NCBI RefSeq assembly: GCF_000743575.1
Contig: NZ_JQGC01000017.1
Span: forward strand, 124,001 to 188,000
DNA: 64,000 nt
Origin: Devosia riboflavina
GTDB lineage: Bacteria; Pseudomonadota; Alphaproteobacteria; Rhizobiales; Devosiaceae
Direction: 5' to 3'
Under the pieces are notes generated by a model, which did no database searches, was not told the origin of the DNA, and saw only the letters and a list, made by a program, of their open reading frames with translations. Below are positions 11,750 to 21,914 of the stretch, in pieces; position 1 is the first letter of the stretch, and each line of letters begins with the position of its first letter. A program made the translations under genes and the position numbers.

Positions 11750-12580
11750 TCAGGTCAATTTGGCGCGGATGCGACGGGATATCGCATCGATGATCGACAC
11801 CGTGACGAGGATCAAGAGAATGATGAAGGCGGCGGCCTGCCAATTGTTGATGCGGATGCGATCGGAAAGTTGGAGACCGATGCCCCCTGCCCCGACAATG
11901 CCGAGGATGGTCGCAGAGCGGACATTCGATTCGAAGAAATAGAGCACGTGGCTCATCATCACCGGAAAGACCTGCGGAAAGACACCGAGCCGCATGACGT
12001 GCAGGCGCCCACCGCCTGAGGCGCGCACGCCGTCGACCGGCTTTTTATCGACATTCTCGATAGCCTCGGCAAAGAGTTTGCCGAGCACCATGACATCGCC
12101 CACGGCAATGGCGAGCACGCCGGCAAAGGGGCCGAGGCCGACGGCGGAGACGAAGATCAGCGCCCAGACGAGACCATCGATGCCGCGGAACGCGTCGAAG
12201 AAGCGCCTGATGCCGAAATGGAAGGCCCAATTGGGCACGATGTTCTTGGCGCCCATGAAGCCGAGCGGAACCGCCAGCACCGCGGCAATGACGGTGCCGA
12301 GAAAGGCCATGGCGAGCGTTTCCAGCATGGCCAGCAGATAGTCGGGCAGGCCATCGCCGGGCCAGGGCGGGATCATCAGACCGACCAGCATGCCGAGCTT
12401 GCCGAGCCCATTGAAAATGCGCATGGGCGAGGCATCGATCCACCAGAGTCCGAAGCCGAGAACCGCGATAAACGCGGCCCATATGCCCCAATCGCGCAGA
12501 CGCTGCGGCAGCGGGCGACTGAAAATTTCGGGATTGGTGCGGCGAAGACGGGCAATGTCGGCGTGCTGAGCGGTGTTCAT
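11750..12580 (-). CDS. phnE: Phosphonate ABC transporter permease (second PhnE)
   Basis: Binding-protein-dependent inner-membrane permease, 276 residues with about six hydrophobic helices. The EAA-type loop reads DGVRASGGGRLHVMRLGVFPQVFP, and the C-terminal helix motif VGAGGIGLQLSDRI is typical of PhnE. It lies 3 bp after the first phnE, so the two probably form a heterodimeric channel with PhnC and PhnD. It is the last gene of the leftward phn cluster. Confidence 0.88.
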   Translation of the reverse strand: MNTAQHADIARLRRTNPEIFSRPLPQRLRDWGIWAAFIAVLGFGLWWIDASPMRIFNGLGKLGMLVGLMIPPWPGDGLPDYLLAMLETLAMAFLGTVIAAVLAVPLGFMGAKNIVPNWAFHFGIRRFFDAFRGIDGLVWALIFVSAVGLGPFAGVLAIAVGDVMVLGKLFAEAIENVDKKPVDGVRASGGGRLHVMRLGVFPQVFPVMMSHVLYFFESNVRSATILGIVGAGGIGLQLSDRIRINNWQAAAFIILLILVTVSIIDAISRRIRAKLT

Positions 12581-12583
12581 GGG

Positions 12584-13495
12584 TTAGGCACCCTGCGTGA
12601 GGTCGTTGCCGATCAGGCGATGGCGGATGGTTTCGCAGATGATGTCGATCACTGACGTGGTCAGGATCAGCAGCAGCAGAATGGCGGAGATATCGGTATA
12701 TTCGAACTGGCGGATGGCGACGTAGAGATCCTCGCCAATACCGCCGGCACCGACAAGGCCGAGCGCGGAGGCCCCGCGCACATTGATCTCGAAGCGCAGC
12801 AGCAGGTAGCTTGCATAATTGGGCAGGGCCTGCGGCACGACGCCGAGACGCATGATCATCGGCCAATTGCCGCCCGAAGCGCGCACGCCCTCGATGGGGC
12901 GCGGATCGACGTTTTCATTGACCTCGGCAAAGAGCTTTCCGAGCGAACCGGCGGTGTGGACGGCGATGGCCAGGACGCCGGCAAAGGGTCCGAGGCCAAA
13001 GGCAAAGACGAAGATCAGCGCAAAGACCAGTTCGGGCACGGTGCGGCAGAATTCGAGCGCGCGGCGCGCGGCAAAGTAGATGCCGGTATTTTCAACGAGG
13101 TTTCGCGAGGCCGGAAAGCAGAGCAGGAGAGCCAGAATACCACCGAGAACCGTGCCGACAAAACCCATGAGAATGGTTTCGACGAGCAGCCGCAGCCAGA
13201 AGCGCAGGCCCCAATACCATTCGGCGAGATCGCCCCAGAGGTTTTCGATCGTCAGCTTTGGCAGGGTGCCGGCGATATAGTTCCAGGCCATGGGCAGGCC
13301 CTTGATGAGGCCGGGAATGCTGAAATCGCTGACGCTGATGGAGCCCACAAGCGCGGCGAGAAATAGCACGCCATAGAGAAGCGTCCAGTTGCGGCGGGTA
13401 AACTGCTGCTGGCGATAGCGGCCTTCGAACGAGAGGAGGCGCTCCTCCCGCGTCGTCGATGACAGCCGGCCATTGGTGGGGGTCAAAGTGGACAC
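12584..13495 (-). CDS. phnE: Phosphonate ABC transporter permease (first PhnE)
   Basis: PhnE-family permease, 303 residues. The EAA loop EGVRASGGNWPMIMRLGVVPQALPN and VGAGGIGEDLYVAIRQFEY are diagnostic. I chose the GTG at 13495 (VSTLTPTNGRLSS), preceded by GAGGG. The longer frame would run back through the hairpin and into phnD. It has a hydrophilic N-terminal arm of about 45 residues not present in the second PhnE. Confidence 0.86.
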   Translation of the reverse strand: MSTLTPTNGRLSSTTREERLLSFEGRYRQQQFTRRNWTLLYGVLFLAALVGSISVSDFSIPGLIKGLPMAWNYIAGTLPKLTIENLWGDLAEWYWGLRFWLRLLVETILMGFVGTVLGGILALLLCFPASRNLVENTGIYFAARRALEFCRTVPELVFALIFVFAFGLGPFAGVLAIAVHTAGSLGKLFAEVNENVDPRPIEGVRASGGNWPMIMRLGVVPQALPNYASYLLLRFEINVRGASALGLVGAGGIGEDLYVAIRQFEYTDISAILLLLILTTSVIDIICETIRHRLIGNDLTQGA

Positions 13496-13511
13496 GGGGC
13501 CCTCGCAGATG

Positions 13512-13543
13512 AAAAAGGCCGACGCACGGGATGCGCGCCGGCC
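13512..13543 (-). terminator. Attenuator-like hairpin between phnD and phnE
   Basis: On the minus strand, 13 bases after the phnD stop, an interrupted stem (GGCCG with CGGCC, plus an inner CGCA with TGCG) is followed directly by TTTTT. It has the form of a partial Rho-independent terminator. Such hairpins after binding-protein genes commonly raise their expression relative to the downstream permeases. Confidence 0.55.
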
Positions 13544-13556
13544 AGGGGACAAGAGA

Positions 13557-14477
13557 TCAGTTGCCGTTCTTGCGGCGCTCTTCGGCGTTGAACTCGGTGA
13601 TGGCGACGAGGTCGAGATAGTCCTCGTGCTTGGCTTCGACATAGCCGCTGGACGTGCCGTTGCTGTAGATGGCAAAGCCTTCCGGGTCCTTTTCCGGGAA
13701 AGCCATCAGCGCAGTCTTGAACGCATCCTGCAGTTCTTGCGGCAGGGTGGTCAGCATCATGACCGGGGTATTCGGAATAACCGGGGACTTCCAGATGATG
13801 CGGGTCGAACCGGCAGGGATCAGGCCCTTCTTTTCCATGGTCTGGATATTGCCGGCAGTTTCATTGCGCCAATGGGTGGCGACGGCTTCAAACGTGCCGT
13901 TGACCAGCGCCATGACGCTCTGTTCATGGCCGCCAGAGAAGGCGACTTCGCCGAAATAGTCATCGGCCGAGGTCTTGAGTTCGGTCGAGAGATAATAGGA
14001 GGGAACGGCATAGCCCGAGGCCGAATTGGGGTCGGCAAAGGCGAAGGATTTCCCCTTGATATCTTCCAGCGACTGATAGGGGCTGTCGGCGCGCACCGCG
14101 ATGACGGAATAGTAGCCGAGATTGCCATCCTGATCGAGGGTGACCGCCACCGGGGCGATATCTTCGCCCATGACCTTGCGGGCGAGCGCATAGGCGGCAG
14201 GACCGACCGAGGCGAACTGCACGTGGCCCGAGCGCATGGCTTCGATCACGGCGGCATAGTCGGTACCGCGCACGATATTGACCGGCACGCCCAGCTCGCG
14301 GCTGAGATAATCGGCATAGGGCTGGGTGCGGGCAATGGCATCGGTCTCGTTCTCGCCCGAGGAAATGCCGATGGTCAGTTCGGGATATTCCGTCTTCCAT
14401 TCTTGCGCGAAGAGGGGGGGGACAAGCGCGAGCGAAACCAGCGCAGCCGCAAGGCCGCGACGCGTCAAGGTGAGCAT
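13557..14477 (-). CDS. phnD: Phosphonate ABC transporter substrate-binding protein
   Basis: Periplasmic binding protein of the PhnD family, 306 residues, with an N-terminal signal peptide ending near LVPPLFAQ. Conserved blocks are GISSGENETDAIARTQPYA, VNIVRGTDYAAVIEAMRSG, FASVGPAAYALA and FAFADPNSASGYAVP (ligand-binding loops of PhnD/PtxB proteins). It delivers a phosphonate-type anion to PhnE/PhnC; the exact ligand cannot be read from sequence. A hairpin separates it from phnE. Confidence 0.9.
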   Translation of the reverse strand: MLTLTRRGLAAALVSLALVPPLFAQEWKTEYPELTIGISSGENETDAIARTQPYADYLSRELGVPVNIVRGTDYAAVIEAMRSGHVQFASVGPAAYALARKVMGEDIAPVAVTLDQDGNLGYYSVIAVRADSPYQSLEDIKGKSFAFADPNSASGYAVPSYYLSTELKTSADDYFGEVAFSGGHEQSVMALVNGTFEAVATHWRNETAGNIQTMEKKGLIPAGSTRIIWKSPVIPNTPVMMLTTLPQELQDAFKTALMAFPEKDPEGFAIYSNGTSSGYVEAKHEDYLDLVAITEFNAEERRKNGN

Positions 14478-14509
14478 TGGTGAAACTCCGGGTTGGGAAA
14501 GGAAGGGCC

Positions 14510-15325
14510 CTAGTGAGCCGCCTCCATCTGTCGTCCTGCGGGACTGGTTCCAGTCATGGTCGAGGTCAGGTTTTCGTCCACGGCTGTTTCGGTATCGTCA
14601 CCATAGATCTCCTGGATCACCGAAGAGGTGAGCTGGCTCGGCGTGCCGTCGAAGACGACGTGGCCATGCGCCATGCCCACGACGCGGTCGCAATAGGCGC
14701 GGGCCGCATCGAGCGTGTGGAGATTGGTGATGACGGTAATCTTGTCCTGGCGGTTGATGGTGCGCAGTGCATCCATCACCAGCCTTGCATTGCGCGGGTC
14801 GAGCGAAGCGATGGGCTCGTCGGCAAGAATGAGGCTCGGCTTCTGCATCAGGGCGCGGGCGATGGCGACGCGCTGCTGCTGACCACCGGAGAGCGTATCG
14901 GCGCGCTGCAGCGCCTGGGACAAAAGGTCCAGCCGATCGAGCGCCATGGCGGCATTGGCCCGGTCTTCGGCTGGAAAGCGCTTGAGCATCACCGGCAGCG
15001 TCGCCGCGGTGCCGATGCGGCCGATCATGACATTGGTGAGAACGTCGAGACGGTTCACGAGGTTAAACTGCTGAAAGATCATGGCGCAGCGGGCCCGCCA
15101 GGCCCGCAAGGCTTTGCCTTCGAGCGCGCCGACATCGGTGTCGCCAAAACTGATGCGACCTTCGCTGACGCCGGCGAGGCGGTTGATGAGACGGAGGAGG
15201 GTCGACTTGCCGGCACCGGACCGGCCGATAATGCCGACCATCTGGCCCGGGGCGAAGGTGAGCGACACGTTGTTGACGGCAATCGTGTCGCCAAAAGTCT
15301 TGGTGACTTTTTTCAGTTCCAGCAT
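14510..15325 (-). CDS. phnC: Phosphonate ABC transporter ATP-binding protein
   Basis: Cytoplasmic ABC ATPase, 271 residues. Walker [10 protein letters not shown] (34-42), Q-loop [17 protein letters not shown] as in PhnC, signature LSGGQQQR, Walker [13 protein letters not shown], and the PhnC-type [18 protein letters not shown]. It is first in the transport unit phnC-phnD-phnE-phnE, 55 bp after phnM. AAGG lies 7 bases before the ATG, and the likely promoter and PhnF operator lie just upstream. Confidence 0.92.
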
Positions 15326-15380
15326 GACGCACCTTGCCGTTGCTCTATGCGTAAAACCCTAACCCGTCTCAATGACACGA

Positions 15381-16580
15381 TTAACTCATTCGAATGACTG
15401 TCTCGTGACGTGTTGAAAGGCCCGAAAGGGCGAGCGCGCCGTCCGAATGGACGAAGCGGCCGCGTGAGAGGGTCGCATGGACGCGACCGACACCGGCATC
15501 GCTGGCAATAAGGAGATCGGCACGCAGGCCGACACGGATTTCGCCGCGATCTTCGAGGCCGAGCGCCCGGGCCGGATTGAGCGAGGTGAGCTTGGCCGCG
15601 CCCGGCAGGCCATTGGGATCGGTCTTGCCCAGGACCAGCACGGCCGGCAGCATGGCGGAGGGGTGATAGTCGGCGGCAAGAAGATCGAGCACGCCGGCTT
15701 CATGGGCTTCGCGGGCCGAGAGATTGCCGGAATAGGACTGGCCGCGGAGAGCGTTCGGCGCGCCCATGGCATTGAGCATGCCCCGGCGATTTGCTTCCTT
15801 GGCGGCTTCCAGAGTCACCGGGAATTCCGAAATATTGGCGCCGAGGGAATCCATCAGCTCCACTTTTTCGATCGTGTCGTCATCGTGGCTCGCGACCGGC
15901 ACGCCATGCAGCGCGCAATATTGGGTGATGGCGCGGAGGGTCGCGGTCATGTCGCCGGCGGTTTCTTGGCGGTCGCGAATGCGCTGCTGCAATTGTTCGG
16001 CGGCGGCTTCGAGCGAAATGCCCTTGTTCTTGGAAATGTTGGCGGCCTGGAGTTCCAGATTGCGATACTGCCCCTGCCCCGGCGTGTGATCGCAGAGGGA
16101 AACGAGATCGACCGAGCCCTCGCCGACGAGTTCCTTCACCACAGACAAGGCAGCCGGGAAAGTCACTTCAAAACGGGCATGGACGCGGTGGTCGATCAGC
16201 AGGTTCGGCCGCGCCGCGACGACGGCGCGGATCATTTCGCTGGTAAAGTCGTAGGAGCGCATATGGCCATAGGTGGAGCCCGGCGCGAAGGAGAGCGAGG
16301 CATAGGCCGTGGTGACGCCCGCCGTTGCAAGCTTCATGTCGAGATCGCGGAGGCCCATTTCCATCGGCATGCGCACGCCCGGACGCGGCTCGATTTCCCT
16401 CTCGATCATGTCGCCATGCATATCGATCATGCCCGGCATGAGGAGGAGACCACGACCGTCTACGTCGGCATTGGCGACGGGCGTTTCGCTGATCTCGGCA
16501 ATGATGCCGTCTTCGATACTTACCGCGCCGTTTTCGATGACGCGATCGGCGAGGACGATACGGAAATTAGAGAGCCACAT
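15381..16580 (-). CDS. phnM: Ribose 1-phosphonate 5-triphosphate diphosphatase-like amidohydrolase
   Basis: PhnM family, amidohydrolase superfamily, 399 residues. In canonical C-P lyase systems it removes pyrophosphate from ribose 1-methylphosphonate 5-triphosphate. Metal-site motifs visible are PGMIDMHGDMIE near the N-terminus with PRPGV after it, LIDHRVHARFEV, SLCDHTPGQGQ and SHDDDT. I chose ATG 16580 (MWLSNFRIV), which gives the family N-terminus and overlaps the phnL stop by 14 bp. Last gene of the phnF-to-phnM unit. Confidence 0.88.
   Translation of the reverse strand: MWLSNFRIVLADRVIENGAVSIEDGIIAEISETPVANADVDGRGLLLMPGMIDMHGDMIEREIEPRPGVRMPMEMGLRDLDMKLATAGVTTAYASLSFAPGSTYGHMRSYDFTSEMIRAVVAARPNLLIDHRVHARFEVTFPAALSVVKELVGEGSVDLVSLCDHTPGQGQYRNLELQAANISKNKGISLEAAAEQLQQRIRDRQETAGDMTATLRAITQYCALHGVPVASHDDDTIEKVELMDSLGANISEFPVTLEAAKEANRRGMLNAMGAPNALRGQSYSGNLSAREAHEAGVLDLLAADYHPSAMLPAVLVLGKTDPNGLPGAAKLTSLNPARALGLEDRGEIRVGLRADLLIASDAGVGRVHATLSRGRFVHSDGALALSGLSTRHETVIRMS
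15384..15399 (-). promoter_or_regulatory. PhnF operator candidate upstream of phnC
   Basis: Contains the perfect 12-bp palindrome TCATTCGAATGA, which recurs immediately upstream of phnF and has the size and symmetry of a GntR/HutC-family operator. It overlaps the last codons of phnM (Val-Ile-Arg-Met-Ser), so the phnC promoter is partly embedded in phnM. A TTGAGA -35-like element with a CATAGA -10-like element 17 bp further on lies between the palindrome and phnC. Confidence 0.65.
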
Positions 16581-17298
16581 TGTCTTCTTCCTCGCTCTGG
16601 TCGGCAACGACCTTGGTATTGAGATTGATTTCGCGGTCGATCAATTGAGCGACGTCGCCGGGGTGATGGAACACGCCAATGATGGCGACACCTTGCGCCT
16701 TCAAATCGGAGAGGCGACGCACGAGGGCGGCGCGGGCACCAACGTCAAGCGATGCCGTGGGCTCATCGAGCAGCAGCAGTTTTTGCGGCAGGATCAGCGC
16801 ACGAGCCAGATTGACCTTCTGCTGTTCGCCACCTGAGAAAGTGCTGGGATAGGCACGCCAGAGTTCGGGGCGTACACCGAACTGGTCGAGCCAGTGCCGG
16901 GCTTGATCGAGTGCCTCGGGCTGCGAGGTGCCCGCGAGAAGCAATGGCTCGGCGACGATATCTTGCGCCGCTACGCGCGGTCGTGCATTGAGGAACTGAG
17001 TGACAAAACCGATTTCCTCGCGGCGGAGCAGCGCGATATCGACATCGGCCGCATTGGCGAGGTCGATATCGCCGTGATTGGAGCGGTACCAGACGTGGCC
17101 GCCAACCGGCAGATAGGAGCGCCAGATGGTGCGCAGCAGCGTCGACTTGCCGGCGCCATTGTGCCCGCGCAGCAGCAGAAATTCGCCTTCATGAAGGTCG
17201 AAGCTGACCCCTTCAAAGGCATGCAGCATGCTGTCGAGATGATACATGCGGAAGGTCTTAGTGAGCCCATCGACACGCAGCAAGGGAGTGGAGTTCAT
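16567..17298 (-). CDS. phnL: C-P lyase-associated ABC protein PhnL
   Basis: ABC-type ATPase without a transmembrane partner, 243 residues. Walker A LRGHNGAGKST, the PhnL-type GFVTQFLNARPRVAAQDIV, signature FSGGEQQKVNLARAL, Walker B LLLLDEPTASLD, switch FHHPGD. In E. coli, PhnL assists PhnG, PhnH and PhnI in forming the ribosylated phosphonate. It lies 9 bp after phnK and overlaps phnM. Confidence 0.88.
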   Translation of the reverse strand: MNSTPLLRVDGLTKTFRMYHLDSMLHAFEGVSFDLHEGEFLLLRGHNGAGKSTLLRTIWRSYLPVGGHVWYRSNHGDIDLANAADVDIALLRREEIGFVTQFLNARPRVAAQDIVAEPLLLAGTSQPEALDQARHWLDQFGVRPELWRAYPSTFSGGEQQKVNLARALILPQKLLLLDEPTASLDVGARAALVRRLSDLKAQGVAIIGVFHHPGDVAQLIDREINLNTKVVADQSEEEDNVAL

Positions 17299-17307
17299 GG
17301 GATCACC

Positions 17308-18129
17308 TCAGAGCTTTGCGTGCACGAGTTGCTGGGTATAGTTGTGCTGCGGGTCCTGGAACACCTGATCGGCAAGACCCTCTTCCACCACTTCGCCATG
17401 GCGCATGACCATGACACGGTCGGCCATCGTGCGGATGACGCCCAGATCGTGGCTGACCAGCACCATGGTGATTTTCCGGTCGCGCTGAAGCCGCTTTAGC
17501 GTATCGAGCACCAGCGCCTGCACGGAAACGTCGAGACCCGTCGTGGGCTCGTCGAGCAGCAACAAAGCAGGTTCGAGTGCGATGGCCTTTGCCAATTGCA
17601 CGCGCTGCTGCATGCCGCCCGACAGCTCGATAGGCCGCGCATCCATGCGCGAAAGCGGGAATTCGGAGGCATCGAGCGCTTCGCGTGCCTTGGCCCGGAG
17701 CACATCAAAGCTGCGTTCGCCGGCAATAAGCAGCCGCTCGGCGACATTGCCGCTCGAAGAATGCTTCATCAGCAGGCCCAGATGCGGGTTCTGGTAAACG
17801 ATGCCGATATGCCGAGCGCAGAGCATGCGGCGCTCGTAGCGCGTCAGGTCGAAGAGATTGCCGTCCTCGCGGTTCGGAAGGCGCAGCGTGTAGTCGCCGC
17901 TATCAGGCGTGTCTTCGAGGTTCATCATCCGCAGCAGCGTCGACTTTCCCGAGCCGCTTTCCCCGACAATGCCCATGACTTCGCCGGGATAGACCGTGGC
18001 ATCGACATGGCGCAGGGCGCGGACGTCACCGTAGGTTTTGGAAATATCGCGCATCGTAAGAAGCGGTTCGGCCCGCATCAGGCGCGGCGCGGCGCGGTCC
18101 AGCGCCGCGGGGCTCATATCCAAGCTCAT
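17308..18129 (-). CDS. phnK: C-P lyase-associated ABC protein PhnK
   Basis: ABC ATPase, 273 residues. Walker A GESGSGKST, the PhnK-type HIGIVYQNPHLGL, signature LSGGMQQRVQLAKAIAL, Walker B LLLLDEPTTGLDVSVQA, and the C-terminal DPQHNYTQQLV. PhnK docks on PhnJ in the E. coli complex. It starts inside the phnJ stop (4-bp overlap). The N-terminal 20 residues before the ABC fold are extra relative to E. coli. Confidence 0.87.
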   Translation of the reverse strand: MSLDMSPAALDRAAPRLMRAEPLLTMRDISKTYGDVRALRHVDATVYPGEVMGIVGESGSGKSTLLRMMNLEDTPDSGDYTLRLPNREDGNLFDLTRYERRMLCARHIGIVYQNPHLGLLMKHSSSGNVAERLLIAGERSFDVLRAKAREALDASEFPLSRMDARPIELSGGMQQRVQLAKAIALEPALLLLDEPTTGLDVSVQALVLDTLKRLQRDRKITMVLVSHDLGVIRTMADRVMVMRHGEVVEEGLADQVFQDPQHNYTQQLVHAKL

Positions 18130-19040
18130 GCCGAAAACTCCCCATTGCGATACCAGGTCTTGCCGATCTCGACCGGTGTGCCTTCCGCCTGTTGGATGGC
18201 CTTGATGCCAAGATTGCTGTCGGACACTTCAAAGGCAGAACCGCCGCCGTCGATGGGCAATTCGTTCATGAAATAGCCGGACACGCCGGAGCGGCGGCAG
18301 GTAAGATCCGCATGGTCCTCAACCCGATAGGGACGGTCGGAGAAAACCAGCGGCTCGACGCGGGTAAAGGGCGGAACGGCAAACAGCCGCTTTTCCCGAC
18401 CCGCGGAGAGGAATGTGAGATGCTTGGCCATGTTGAGCTTTGGCACATCCCAGCGCGGAATGGGCGAGGGCGTCATGACGTGGCGGCCATTGACCATCGA
18501 GGGGTAGGCCGCGCCCTGCATGATCCGACCCTTGCGAACGATCTGCTCGTAAAGCGTCAGCCAGAGCTTTCCGTAGTCGGCATCGGCGTGCATCTGCCGG
18601 GCGATGGAGATGTTGGGCTCCACGCCACGCAGGGGCTCGGGATTGGGCACCTGCAGCACGAGGATCTGATCCTCGCGCATTACCTCTTCGGGCACGCGGT
18701 GACGCGACTGCACGATGGAGGCGGCGAGTGTGTCCCAGGTTTCGCTCGCGCCCGACACCCGCGAAATGAAGCGGCGGATCGAGGCGGCATTGACGCCGTC
18801 GTCAGCGCCTTGGTCGATCACCTTTACCGTCGAGGTCGGGTTGACCAGCGTGAGGGTCACCTGCAGCCCGCCGGTGCCCCAGCCGCGGGCCATCGGCACC
18901 TCGCGGCTGGCATAGGGCATCTGGCAGCCGGGTACTGCGATGGCTTTTAGCATCTTGCGGCGCAACTCGCGCTTGGCCGAGGCGTCGAGAAAACCGTAAC
19001 TGGTCGCAGCCCAGGGCCTTGTCAGGGATGAAAGGCTCAT
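18126..19040 (-). CDS. phnJ: PhnJ homologue lacking most of the radical-SAM cysteine motif
   Basis: Clearly PhnJ by sequence: KAIAVPGCQMPYASREVPM, WGTGGLQ, KVIDQGADD, QSRHRVPEE, EDQILVLQVPNPEPLRGVEP, PSPIPRWDVPK and AGREKRLFAVPPFTRVE. The glycine equivalent to E. coli Gly32 (Gly38) and residues equivalent to Arg107, Gln124 and Tyr158 are present. The family motif CX2CX21CX5C (E. coli 241/244/266/272) is not. Only Cys248 remains, and the other positions by ungapped alignment are Ser251, Ser273 and Ile279. The only other Cys is Cys39, next to the conserved Gly38. I checked the nucleotides and found no frameshift. The protein is 304 residues, with a diverged C-terminal tail. It overlaps phnI and phnK by 4 bp each, so it is expressed with them. 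Canonical C-P bond cleavage is doubtful. Confidence 0.88.
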   Translation of the reverse strand: MSLSSLTRPWAATSYGFLDASAKRELRRKMLKAIAVPGCQMPYASREVPMARGWGTGGLQVTLTLVNPTSTVKVIDQGADDGVNAASIRRFISRVSGASETWDTLAASIVQSRHRVPEEVMREDQILVLQVPNPEPLRGVEPNISIARQMHADADYGKLWLTLYEQIVRKGRIMQGAAYPSMVNGRHVMTPSPIPRWDVPKLNMAKHLTFLSAGREKRLFAVPPFTRVEPLVFSDRPYRVEDHADLTCRRSGVSGYFMNELPIDGGGSAFEVSDSNLGIKAIQQAEGTPVEIGKTWYRNGEFSA

Positions 19041-20122
19041 TCTGCTGATTCCATCTGGCGCGTTTCGGCTGGCTTTTGCTCGGCCGCCGCCTTTTTTGCT
19101 TTGGCGTCACGCATGGCATCGAGGATCGACTGGAAGGTGACGTAGTGGGGCAGCTTGAAGTGGATGCAGAAGCCCGAGGCCTCTACGCTCTCGGTGTGAT
19201 AGAGATAAAATTCTTCGTGGACGGGCGAGCCCACCGGCGCCTCCGCCGAATTGAGATCGAGCGTTGCTGCCGCGATCACCTTCACTTCGTTCCAGCCGAA
19301 GGTCGCGGCGAAGCCCAATTCCAGAAATCCGCCCTTTTCCTTGGACGTGACTTCGGCTTGGCTGACGCGCACACGCCCGGCAGAAAACTCGGTGCCGCTC
19401 GGATGGCGCACGACGACTTCCGCCTCGCCAAGACGCAGTTCATTGACCGTCGGATGGGCATTGCCGTAGCCGCGCATGGCCGAGTAACCGAGGGCCAGAA
19501 CGCCACCGGTCTCGGCACGGGCGAGGCTCTGCAGGCGATGCGCACGGGAGGCCGGGAAAAGCAGGGGTTCGCGCGTCAGGTCCGGAATGTCTTCGGGCGC
19601 CACATCGGAAGCATTGGCGGGAGCGACCAGACCCTGCTGGCGCTGCCAATCGGCAAGCGAGGGCTGGCGCGACGGCGCAGGCTTGGCCGCAGCCTCTACG
19701 GCCGGTGGCGCATAGGGCTTGCCTTCGAGTACGTCGGTCGCCAGCACGCGGTGCGAATAGTCGAGGGTTGGCCCAAGAATCTGACCGCCCGGAATATCCT
19801 TGAACGCCGCCGAGATGCGGCGTTGGGTGAGGATTTCGTCCTGCTGTACCGGCCGGGCGATGGCGATGCGCGGCTGGGTGGTGCGCCAGGCGCGCAGCAC
19901 CAGCACCGCTTCGGAAAGTTCGCCGCCGGTCTGCGCTAGCGCAAGGGCCGCCAGTTCCTCGCTATAGAGCGAGGCTTCGCCCATCACGCGATCGATCAGA
20001 TAGGGCATGGTCTGCTTAATGGTCTCGACGCGGCTCGCGTCGATGGTCCCCAGATCCTGCCGGAAGAGGCGCTCGGCCTGCTCGATGGCCTTTTCGCCAC
20101 CGCGGGTTGCGACATAGGCCAT
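19037..20122 (-). CDS. phnI: C-P lyase core subunit PhnI (diverged)
   Basis: PhnI family, 361 residues. In E. coli it is the nucleosidase that, with PhnG, PhnH and PhnL, swaps adenine of ATP for the phosphonate. Conserved here are GGEKAIEQAERL, the RVMGEASLYSEELAALAL helix, ERRISAAFKDIPGGQILGPT-like text, RGYGNAHPTVNELR, and the PhnI-PhnJ interface motif HFKLPHY, whose histidines bind zinc. The middle region differs from typical PhnI: the usual TEC segment reads SQAEVT, and the SERKAMAMALVDRAL block is replaced by NEVKVIAAATLDL. It overlaps phnJ by 4 bp. Confidence 0.85.
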   Translation of the reverse strand: MAYVATRGGEKAIEQAERLFRQDLGTIDASRVETIKQTMPYLIDRVMGEASLYSEELAALALAQTGGELSEAVLVLRAWRTTQPRIAIARPVQQDEILTQRRISAAFKDIPGGQILGPTLDYSHRVLATDVLEGKPYAPPAVEAAAKPAPSRQPSLADWQRQQGLVAPANASDVAPEDIPDLTREPLLFPASRAHRLQSLARAETGGVLALGYSAMRGYGNAHPTVNELRLGEAEVVVRHPSGTEFSAGRVRVSQAEVTSKEKGGFLELGFAATFGWNEVKVIAAATLDLNSAEAPVGSPVHEEFYLYHTESVEASGFCIHFKLPHYVTFQSILDAMRDAKAKKAAAEQKPAETRQMESAE

Positions 20123-20124
20123 TT

Positions 20125-20664
20125 TTAGAGGACCTCTACCTTGGTTGAACGCGGAATACCGATGACCGAACGGCCATCGACGAGGAGCATGTCAAAGCCT
20201 TCGGGATAGGCGCAGAGCATGGCGCGCATGGCCCAAAAGCCGGACGCAATGCCGAGGGTTACTTCAATGGTGCCATCGACGCCCGGGCCGGAAAGCCGCA
20301 CGCGCTGGCCGACGCCATGGCGAACTGCTGCAACGAGCGTTGCGCCATCATCGGGATAGAGCGCGCTGCCGCAGCGGAGCGCGACAAGCCGCGCTTCCGC
20401 GCCTTCGAGCGAGGACAGGAACACGTGGTCTGCCTGGGAAACATCTTCGGCCTGAAGCGCACCTGTCGCCGCAATCTGCGCGCGCAGGTCCGGATCATCG
20501 GAAAACACGGTGCATTCAAGATCGACCAGCGTTTCGACAACCGCGGAAAACCCAGCCTCGGGCATGTCCCTGATATCGCCGGGGCGCGAAAGGGCCCACA
20601 TCAGCGCTTCGAACGTCGCATTGGCGCGCAGTTCGACGGCATCGGGAGGAGCAACGGTCAGCAT
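20125..20664 (-). CDS. phnH: C-P lyase core subunit PhnH (diverged)
   Basis: PhnH family, 179 residues, somewhat shorter than the E. coli protein (about 194). Features are the N-terminal FEALMWALSRPGDIRDMP, the central RLSGPGVDGTIEV, and C-terminal PEGFDMLLVDGRSVIGIPRST, close to the usual PxGxDxxL...LPRTT end. It forms the core hexamer with PhnG, PhnI and PhnJ. It begins on the last base of phnG (1-bp overlap) and lies 2 bp before phnI. Confidence 0.84.
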   Translation of the reverse strand: MLTVAPPDAVELRANATFEALMWALSRPGDIRDMPEAGFSAVVETLVDLECTVFSDDPDLRAQIAATGALQAEDVSQADHVFLSSLEGAEARLVALRCGSALYPDDGATLVAAVRHGVGQRVRLSGPGVDGTIEVTLGIASGFWAMRAMLCAYPEGFDMLLVDGRSVIGIPRSTKVEVL

Positions 20665-21110
20665 CAGAACGTCTCCATTTCGACGCGCGTGGCTTCCACC
20701 TGCCGCATGCGCTTTTCGTCTTCGGCGACGAGATATGCCCGTTCCTCGGAGAGAAAGTCCGTCGTGGTCGGCTCTTCGCCCAGGGTCGCGATCCGAAGAT
20801 CGACGACGGCCATGGCCATGGCGCGTTCGAGATCGCGGCCGGTGACCATGCCATAGCCGACATGCCCTGCGGCATCGGTGATATGGGCTTCGCTCACCAG
20901 GACTTCGCCGAGGTGAAAATCGACATTTTCGACCGTGTCGCGCATCGGCACCATGACGAGGCCGGTGCGGTTGGTCAGGACGGCGATCTCGCCCATGCTT
21001 TCGAGCAGGGTTTCGGCAAGCGCCTTTAGCCGCTCGGGCCGGGCCCGCGCCAGAATGCCCAGCATGGCGCCTTGATCGGGTCCGCCGGAGGGAGTTTCGC
21101 TAAACATCAT
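20664..21110 (-). CDS. phnG: C-P lyase core subunit PhnG (diverged)
   Basis: PhnG family, 148 residues, the usual length. It keeps the overall plan, with an early MLGILARARPERLKALAE helix, FHLGEVLVSEAHI and YGMVTGRDLERAMAMAVVDL (the GRD...A...AxxDxL block). The GTG and TRC residues that are typical of the family are replaced (MRDTVENVDFHLGE; SEAHI). It overlaps the phnF stop by 11 bp. Confidence 0.82.
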   Translation of the reverse strand: MMFSETPSGGPDQGAMLGILARARPERLKALAETLLESMGEIAVLTNRTGLVMVPMRDTVENVDFHLGEVLVSEAHITDAAGHVGYGMVTGRDLERAMAMAVVDLRIATLGEEPTTTDFLSEERAYLVAEDEKRMRQVEATRVEMETF

Positions 21111-21855
21111 TGCTTCTTTCGGTCGTCAACACGGTCGGCTGGTCGGTTTCGAAGGTGAACTGCACCCGGTCACCGGCCCATACCGCCTCGGAAAATCCAA
21201 TCGGCCGCCCGTCGAGATCGGCGTCGACCTTCTGCACCACGAGCACCGACTGGCCCGGCCGCAGCATCAGCATGGCCGCCTCGTTTTCGGAGGCGATGCG
21301 GGTGAAGACGGTGGTGCGCAGGCGCCGGTAATCGGTGATGCCGTAGGAATGGTAGACCTTGGTGATGGAGGTCAGTTCGCGCCGCCGTTCCTGCAGGTCC
21401 GGAAAGCGCGTGAGGTCGTGATAGGCCCAGCCCATGCTGATCGGCAGGTCATTGGCAAAGCCGCGCCAGGAGCGGGCGATGACCGGCGCGTCGATCTCAA
21501 TCTGCAGGGCCGCGGCCACGCGGGTGCTGGCCGGAATATGCATTTCCGACAGCGTTTCGCCCGAGGCCGTCAGGCCCTGGGAATTAAGATTTTCGCGGAA
21601 GCGCGTGCGCGGGCCGATGACATAATTGAGCAAAGGGGCGCGCTCGACAAAGGTGCCGCGCCCATGTTCGACGCGCAGCTTGCCCTCGGATACCAGCGCC
21701 GCCAGTGCCTTGCGCAGCGAATGGCGCCGCGCCCCGTAAAGCACGCAAAGTTCAGGTTCAGACGGCAGGCGCGTATCCGGCGCGAGGCGTCCCGAGACGA
21801 TTTCTTCACTGATCCTGTCCCGGGTTTCCTCCCAGGAATGGCCTTGATTGCGCAT
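21100..21855 (-). CDS. phnF: GntR/HutC-family transcriptional regulator PhnF
   Basis: Regulator of 251 residues with an N-terminal winged HTH (RISEEIVSGRLAPDTRLPSEPELC ... LRKALAALVSEGKLRVEHGRGTFV) and a C-terminal UTRA ligand-binding domain (RSWRGFANDLPISMGWAYHDL). It is first gene of the phn cluster, as in many phosphonate operons. A 20-bp palindrome sits 5 bp before its ATG, implying autoregulation, and the same core recurs before phnC. The effector is unknown. Confidence 0.88.
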   Translation of the reverse strand: MRNQGHSWEETRDRISEEIVSGRLAPDTRLPSEPELCVLYGARRHSLRKALAALVSEGKLRVEHGRGTFVERAPLLNYVIGPRTRFRENLNSQGLTASGETLSEMHIPASTRVAAALQIEIDAPVIARSWRGFANDLPISMGWAYHDLTRFPDLQERRRELTSITKVYHSYGITDYRRLRTTVFTRIASENEAAMLMLRPGQSVLVVQKVDADLDGRPIGFSEAVWAGDRVQFTFETDQPTVLTTERSNDV

Positions 21856-21860
21856 GGTAC

Positions 21861-21880
21861 CAACTCATTCGAATGAGCTG
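21861..21880 (-). promoter_or_regulatory. PhnF operator candidate upstream of phnF
   Basis: A 20-bp imperfect palindrome with the 14-bp perfect core CTCATTCGAATGAG. It shares TCATTCGAATGA with the site before phnC. It lies between a TTGACC -35-like element and the phnF start codon and covers the -10/ribosome-binding region, so binding would block initiation. Confidence 0.68.
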
Positions 21881-21896
21881 GTTGTAGCCATGGTCA

Positions 21897-21914
21897 ATGA
21901 CACGCGCGTGACAT
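21897..21914 (-). promoter_or_regulatory. Pho-box-like direct repeat at the phnF promoter
   Basis: On the minus strand it reads ATGTCACGCGCGTGTCAT, two TGTCA(C/T) units spaced 11 bp, matching the 7-4-7 layout of the PhoB box (CTGTCAT-N4-CTGTCAT). It ends at the TTGACC -35-like element, the normal position for PhoB activation. This suggests phosphate-starvation control of the phn unit. Confidence 0.5.

Follow-up and report, generated by a model that had tools for sequence, protein, structure and literature searches.

The window, which is the whole analysed stretch of 64,000 nucleotides of Devosia riboflavina DNA at positions 124001-188000 of contig C17, contains an operon of the order phnFGHIJKLM-C-D-E-E that runs from position 21855 down to 11750, with every gene on the minus strand. 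The genes and the sites next to them are:

21897-21914, minus strand: Pho-box-like site upstream of phnF, matching the consensus in 11 of 14 positions
21860-21881, no strand assigned: 22-bp inverted repeat, CCAACTCATTCGAATGAGCTGG, in which one pair is mismatched; it lies directly upstream of phnF and is a possible PhnF operator
21100-21855, minus strand: phnF, GntR/UTRA regulator (TIGR02325 above cut-off)
20664-21110, minus strand: phnG (TIGR03293 at cut-off, 89 bits; PF06754)
20125-20664, minus strand: phnH (TIGR03292 above cut-off)
19037-20122, minus strand: phnI (PF05861, 361.7 bits)
18126-19040, minus strand: phnJ variant without the CX2CX21CX5C motif, 304 aa (PF06007, 373 bits; alignment with E. 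coli PhnJ)
18207-18299, minus strand: altered cysteine site in phnJ, with the C248 codon (18297-18299), S251, V272 and G278 (alignment)
17308-18129, minus strand: phnK, ABC protein (best NCBIfam match TIGR02323, under cut-off; ATPase residues kept)
16567-17298, minus strand: phnL, ABC protein (best NCBIfam match TIGR02324, under cut-off; E175 equivalent kept)
15381-16607, minus strand: phnM, ribosyl-phosphonate triphosphate diphosphatase (NF011988, 532 bits, and TIGR02318, 422 bits, both above cut-off); ORF taken from TTG, start uncertain
14510-15325, minus strand: phnC, transporter ATPase (TIGR02315 above cut-off)
13557-14477, minus strand: phnD, binding protein (TIGR03431 above cut-off)
12584-13675, minus strand: phnE, first permease (place and order of the annotated phnE of Nitratireductor plasmid pOM-1; ORF cluster 1); ORF taken from TTG, true start probably more internal
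11750-12580, minus strand: phnE, second permease (place and order as annotated phnE of pOM-1; ORF cluster 1)

The partners of the core complex, phnGHI and phnKLM, are found together in this one operon, with phnK and phnL under their NCBIfam cut-offs, and both phnE identities rest on synteny with pOM-1. The 2023 structure report on the E. coli C-P lyase describes PhnI H328 and H333 as binding zinc (PMC9947105); the window PhnI has equivalents of both, H321 and H326, and of H219. Its C319 aligns with E. coli position 326 and precedes the first zinc histidine by two residues; it is the cysteine typical of the clade described below. Contig C7 of the source genome (5.05 Mb) bears another phnJ, a canonical one with the motif CALC...CSDTDHC. 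It belongs to another phn system of the same cell (L001), groups with rhizobial PhnJ and is not a recent parent of the window copy; its Pfam match reaches 497 bits, compared with 373 bits for the window PhnJ. Away from both phn operons, this genome has an additional phnN close to a DUF1045 gene (G000:C3:286199-288391).

The match of the window PhnJ to PF06007 (cut-off 25 bits) extends from position 3 to position 268 of the 275-position profile. E. coli PhnJ (4xb6_D) is matched across residues 14-276, with 46-48% identity in the fold alignment. Foldseek confirmed the PhnJ fold with a TM score of 0.70-0.71 by query and an rmsd of about 7 Å. In the gapped alignment, E. coli C241, C244, C266 and C272 correspond to C248, S251, V272 and G278, the last two assignments following from the pairing of window S273 and D274 with E. 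coli S267 and D268. The window PhnJ thereby lacks the CX2CX21CX5C cluster ligands that define a radical-SAM PhnJ, and judged by its sequence it is a member of the PhnJ family that falls outside the criteria of a radical C-P lyase. The earlier note, which had described the missing motif and an intact frame from the sequence, was right on both counts, as the 304-aa minus-strand ORF contains no frameshift. Its ungapped numbering holds for C248 and S251, but the Ser273 and Ile279 given there are one residue off and should read V272 and G278. Gly38, the equivalent of E. coli G32, is kept as the note had stated, together with the equivalents of R107, Q124 and Y158, and the alignment adds the equivalent of H108. 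A sequencing error is very unlikely as the source of the missing motif, because the loss is shared by a 98% identical copy from a Devosia MAG (L003), the closest PhnJ among the matches listed, and by 40 more homologues. The cysteine next to the glycine (Cys39), which had been pointed out as new, is indeed present in the window PhnJ, but a new catalytic role is unsupported: the position is Cys in 20 of the 42 members of the lineage and otherwise Tyr, Phe or His, and Cys is also found in two of 94 canonical sequences, and it was rejected as a new thiol beside the radical glycine. The absence of an NCBIfam match was likewise discarded as a sign of divergence, as a canonical PhnJ and PhnI that were compared are also without one.

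The distribution of this variant was examined in several collections. The first scan used one genome per species, and within the 80 best relatives among the matches listed, 28 lack C244, C266 and C272 and 52 are canonical. The plasmid collection, in which 30 of 197 records were among the matches listed and seven were examined, added Nitratireductor, Sinorhizobium, Mesorhizobium and Haematobacter as well as, unexpectedly, Thermus thermophilus HB8 pVV8 and Thermus strain SNM1-1. In an even draw of Chloroflexota, PhnJ was found in 27 of 301 genomes (28 genes), and nine of these 28 genes are without the motif. In an even draw of Alphaproteobacteria, PhnJ occurs in 65 of 385 genomes (67 genes); here the split was made by score, with the alignment covering the window genome's own two PhnJ, and two genes score low (373 and 384 bits, one of them the window gene) while 65 reach at least 467 bits. 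Altogether 136 PhnJ sequences were aligned: 94 have all four cysteines, 42 are without the last three (all four in two members), and there are no intermediates. These counts exclude L101-L110 as second copies of loci already counted, the window's own copy (L002), a near-copy of L007 (L124) and an untranslated locus (L169). The Cys-less PhnJ span Alphaproteobacteria, Chloroflexota and Thermus plasmids, with the restriction that some phylum labels are MAG titles and that one 'Bacteroidetes' MAG (L026) groups with Anaerolineae. In a Rhodobacteraceae MAG (L114, G028:C24:24000-43000) a Cys-less phn system and a four-cysteine one stand in tandem. The four-cysteine system precedes phnN and a PhnP-like gene, and the MAG has a third PhnJ on a different contig.

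In the PhnJ tree of 119 rows, from which the cysteine domain was removed, the 38 Cys-less rows are set apart from all others by a branch supported at 99/97, which is present in 100% of 200 bootstrap trees, and Thermus is the first branch within them. An earlier quick tree of 103 rows gave the same split with a support of 96. A quick PhnI tree without the zinc-site end again separates them (37 of 114 rows, SH-aLRT 100), although it carries long-branch warnings, Thermus among them. Both trees omit 17 rows, mostly near-duplicates, and the PhnI tree is also without L074, L096 and L143, owing to a length filter, and L051 and L095, which have no PhnI at the locus. The expectation of the earlier note that Cys-less homologues might group together with the same synteny was borne out, and Thermus has the gene order phnGHIJKLM, as do those Chloroflexota-type loci that are long enough to show it. 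A single loss of the cysteines is the natural reading of these unrooted trees, and the Cys-less PhnJ appear as an old, conserved lineage across several bacterial phyla.

The loss of three of four motif cysteines might also be taken as the mark of a decaying copy without function, an explanation that is hardly credible given how these genes behave otherwise. The dN/dS values of the window phnJ against L003-L007 and L010 are 0.04-0.12 (simple Nei-Gojobori estimates, with dS of about 1 for the farther pairs), and the Cys-less phnJ is under purifying selection. The operons are complete in three phyla. The C-terminal domain is modelled with confidence and has a conserved pattern of its own: the AlphaFold model of the window PhnJ has a pLDDT of 76.9 and is low at residues 134-177, but shows blocks of 80-93 from residue 241. 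In addition, an intact segment of about 18 kb appears to have moved recently. Paracoccus shanxieyensis shares an operon-bearing stretch of 18.3 kb with a Haematobacter plasmid at 99.9% identity, and its phn parts are also found in Aureimonas, so that L007, L010 and L124 (Paracoccus, Aureimonas and the Haematobacter plasmid) share near-identical operon DNA. Such identity is best read as recent transfer of an intact system across orders, with shared contamination less likely because the three are separate records. In the Haematobacter copy, IS66 genes lie between phnM and phnC.

The residues retained by the lineage are those of the substrate and zinc site. In E. coli, as the structure report describes it, R107 and Q124 hold the ribose, and H108 together with zinc holds the cyclic phosphate (PMC9947105). 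In PhnJ, G32, GWGT47-50, R107, H108, Q124, S267 and D268 are kept in 42/42 Cys-less sequences and Y158 in 39/42, and the cognate PhnI keep H219, H328 and H333 in 42/42. Every member thus has the complete PhnJ and PhnI residue set (R107, H108 and Q124; H328 and H333) of the site for 5-phosphoribosyl 1,2-cyclic phosphate (PRcP) and zinc. The ABC partners are also preserved, with Q90, D170, E171 and H204 of PhnK kept in 29/29 sequences, R82 not being kept, and E175 of PhnL kept in 28/28 cognate rows; the contig of L028 ends before phnL and contributes no PhnL to this number. Compared with the E. coli C-P lyase, the Cys-less system is alike in its operon core, its PRcP- and zinc-binding residues and its ABC partners, and differs in the lost cysteines, a conserved C-terminal extension and a typical cysteine beside the PhnI zinc ligand. 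The C-terminus (window residues 257-300) shares the pattern FMNE.P or similar, followed by SDS....K, with G.TWY/TYY outside Thermus.

The CX2CX21CX5C ligands are present in 94/94 sequences outside the group and in 0/42 within it, and the position of the thiyl cysteine C272 is occupied by Gly, Ala, Met, Val, Ile or Trp in all 42. None of them can bind a cluster through the three or four motif cysteines of PhnJ. Two PhnJ from Anaerolineae MAGs, L027 (319 aa) and L029 (315 aa), contain no cysteine at all, even over the whole stop-to-stop frame, and therefore cannot carry a thiyl radical. Both Thermus PhnJ have a single cysteine, at the C241 position. An alternative set of cysteines, which the earlier note had named as a possible objection, was sought and no replacement set is shared in PhnG, PhnH, PhnI or PhnJ: PhnG has no column with at least 40% Cys (30 rows), PhnH has one (20/37; 37 rows), and PhnI (42 rows) has no conserved replacement set. 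A displaced Fe-S cluster in PhnG, PhnH, PhnI or PhnK was rejected for want of a conserved cysteine set, the best PhnK column reaching 17/29.

One cysteine does follow the loss. PhnI position 326, two residues before the zinc ligand H328, is Cys in 40/42 systems with a Cys-less PhnJ compared with 2/92 canonical ones, and it is Ala in both Thermus systems (2/2). It is a strong correlate, but as a replacement catalyst it was rejected: because Thermus has Ala, the cysteine is neither essential nor a universal new catalyst, and it also occurs in the two canonical systems. At this site (residues 313-332) the AlphaFold model of PhnI has low confidence, and no geometry was taken from the models. Radical chemistry could nevertheless have been kept in another way, with an external activase or thiol acting on the invariant glycine, or with a thiol elsewhere, such as the PhnI cysteine on the zinc side. 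The invariance of Gly32 (42/42) speaks for it, as does the distribution of PhnI Cys326, and the radical role of this glycine in the Cys-less lineage is putative. Yet the Thermus systems manage without the PhnI cysteine, no other cysteine column in PhnG, PhnH, PhnI or PhnJ is common to the clade, and no radical enzyme is found among the named flanking genes, many flanking ORFs being unannotated. We consider this explanation clearly unlikely.

It could also be argued that the canonical C-P lyase itself needs no cysteine site, in which case the lineage would contain ordinary C-P lyases with an expendable domain altered. Published biochemistry, reportedly that of Kamat from 2011 and 2013, assigns Fe-S and thiyl roles to the PhnJ cysteines and stands against this. 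The same is true of the retention of all four cysteines in 94/94 other aligned PhnJ. What lends the argument some weight is a distance problem in the E. coli structure, where the Fe-S site is 30 Å from the radical glycine Gly32 (PMC9947105). On balance, an expendable cysteine site appears very improbable. The authors of the structure also note that the zinc site between PhnI and PhnJ resembles an active site, and they speak of a mechanistic conundrum that has stayed unresolved for over 35 years (PMC9947105). For this mechanism the Cys-less lineage is a natural experiment, with the cysteine site removed and the zinc site kept, so that the two can be studied apart, for example in T. thermophilus HB8.

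In the first set of 28 genomes among the matches listed, 18 also hold a four-cysteine PhnJ and one (G012) has two fragments of a second PhnJ. No other PhnJ was found in the remaining nine (G003, G016, G021 and G022-G027), and none was found in 9/9 genomes of the Chloroflexota draw with a Cys-less PhnJ, G022 being in both sets. Many of these sole-copy genomes are MAGs, which makes the absence uncertain, and the Haematobacter genome (G016) is a named strain. These numbers bear on the possibility that the Cys-less PhnJ is a scaffold or pseudo-enzyme in a system that only ribosylates, with cleavage left to another enzyme, such as a canonical PhnJ that the cell also has or an independent hydrolase. 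In E. coli, a phnJ mutant shows ribosyl phosphonates but no ribose 1,2-cyclic phosphate (PMC3463581). The many genomes with both types agree with this, and so does the finding that at two of the six non-alphaproteobacterial loci of the first set (L024 and L026) phnX and a TIGR03364 FAD oxidase gene lie downstream of phnM. The genomes with a sole copy argue against it, as do the invariant substrate-site residues of PhnJ, which a mere scaffold would not need, and we regard it as unlikely. The pair of phnX, encoding phosphonoacetaldehyde hydrolase, and the TIGR03364 oxidase gene is in itself a hint at aminoethylphosphonate-type compounds.

The genes for processing the product are distributed unevenly. 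DUF1045 and phnN continue the operon in Phyllobacterium and Mesorhizobium AR07, and phnN is divergent from phnF in Haematobacter; because of these arrangements, the usual product, PRcP, is suggested for such systems. PhnN is above the cut-off in 22 of 29 genomes, with G017 narrowly below, and in none of the six non-alphaproteobacterial genomes G022-G027. DUF1045 is absent in five of these six, the sixth (G026) having a weak match of 31 bits at a cut-off of 24, and PhnP is above the cut-off of 272 bits in 0/29 genomes, with G028 coming closest at 265 bits. PRcP as the product is not supported in G022-G027, because PhnN and PhnP are under their cut-offs and DUF1045 is absent or weak. Phosphodiesterase genes lie near some of the operons, namely a YmdB-like one in Thermus, a calcineurin-like one in L028 and a weak 2H match in L166, and are only suggestive.

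The Pho-box-like site of the window lies 41 bp before phnF. Scored against the Pho-box consensus, 10 of 19 loci match at least 11 of 14 positions, with the maximum of 14/14 in L008 (L007 and L010 are near-copies); L036 was excluded from this count, as the phnF scored there belongs to a tandem system. In none of these ten loci do more than 8 of 300 base shuffles reach 11. The remaining nine loci, with scores of 9 or 10, cannot be told apart from shuffles, and over the whole window Pho-box-like sites are no commoner than chance. Phosphorus scavenging is the likely role of the system.

The view of the earlier note that the protein looks functional, but not as a canonical C-P lyase, remains the best reading in the light of the clade, the synteny, the purifying selection and the retained PRcP/zinc site. 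We tentatively propose, with a probability of roughly 45%, a working phosphorus scavenger that would be derived from the C-P lyase and would cleave its substrates by polar chemistry at the zinc/histidine site, acting on better leaving groups than alkyl. PhnJ would have lost the Fe-S/SAM/thiyl apparatus and kept the substrate site. By homology, PhnCDEE would import the compound, PhnGHI with PhnL would couple it to ribose 5-triphosphate from ATP, PhnM would remove pyrophosphate, and PhnK/PhnL would open and close the core, driven by ATP as in E. coli. The altered step would take place at the PhnI-PhnJ zinc/histidine site (PhnI H328/H333; PhnJ R107, H108 and Q124), where the ribose 2'-OH would attack phosphorus, assisted by zinc and H108, in a ribonuclease-like manner. 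This attack would yield 5-phosphoribosyl 1,2-cyclic phosphate and expel the substituent. Ribonuclease-type transesterases would share this chemistry, with 2'-OH attack leading to a cyclic phosphate, which is a mechanistic analogy with no homology claimed.

A plain alkyl-phosphorus bond cannot be broken by the polar route, and the substrate would be one with a better leaving group, namely an activated phosphonate, phosphite (P-H) or a compound with a P-N or P-O bond. Phosphite is included because the E. coli phn cluster reportedly takes part in phosphite assimilation, going by the title of a 1991 paper of Metcalf and Wanner. The invariance of Gly32 counts against polar cleavage, because the proposed role of this glycine is to hold a radical. 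The lack of support for PRcP in G022-G027 also weighs against the proposal. That the whole is a sister machine of the C-P lyase, in which ATP-driven ribosylation was kept and radical cleavage exchanged for zinc-assisted attack of the ribose 2'-OH, is possible though on the doubtful side. If true, it would provide a general route from activated phosphonates, phosphoramidates, phosphate esters or phosphite to ribose cyclic phosphate, with H2 formed from phosphite, and the cleavage would be independent of SAM and iron and thus oxygen-insensitive.

No report of a cysteine-lacking PhnJ was found in searches of open-access literature, subscription papers, for example on pVV8, being outside their scope. 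The presence of phnJ is used to indicate that methane is released from methylphosphonate (for example in PMC9999580), and all six annotated plasmid copies examined are named 'C-P-lyase PhnJ'; Cys-less genes would be miscounted because of this use and this annotation. One survey filtered databases by catalytic residues (PMC9381506), and would have dropped the Cys-less PhnJ if the filter used the PhnJ cysteines.

The phn cluster of T. thermophilus HB8 pVV8, the first branch of the same Cys-less group, has features of its own: besides the Ala at the PhnI position and the YmdB-like phosphodiesterase nearby, it has a LacI-type regulator. A xylose-isomerase-like TIM-barrel gene (PF01261) lies near the operon in Thermus (L119, 18595-19359) and directly upstream of phnG in a Chloroflexota locus (L164, 12505-13329). 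In L009 (about 12556-16900) and L013 (about 13476-16240), genes for a second PhnM-like hydrolase, a methyltransferase-like protein and transporters adjoin the Cys-less operon on the opposite strand and apparently form another phosphonate operon.
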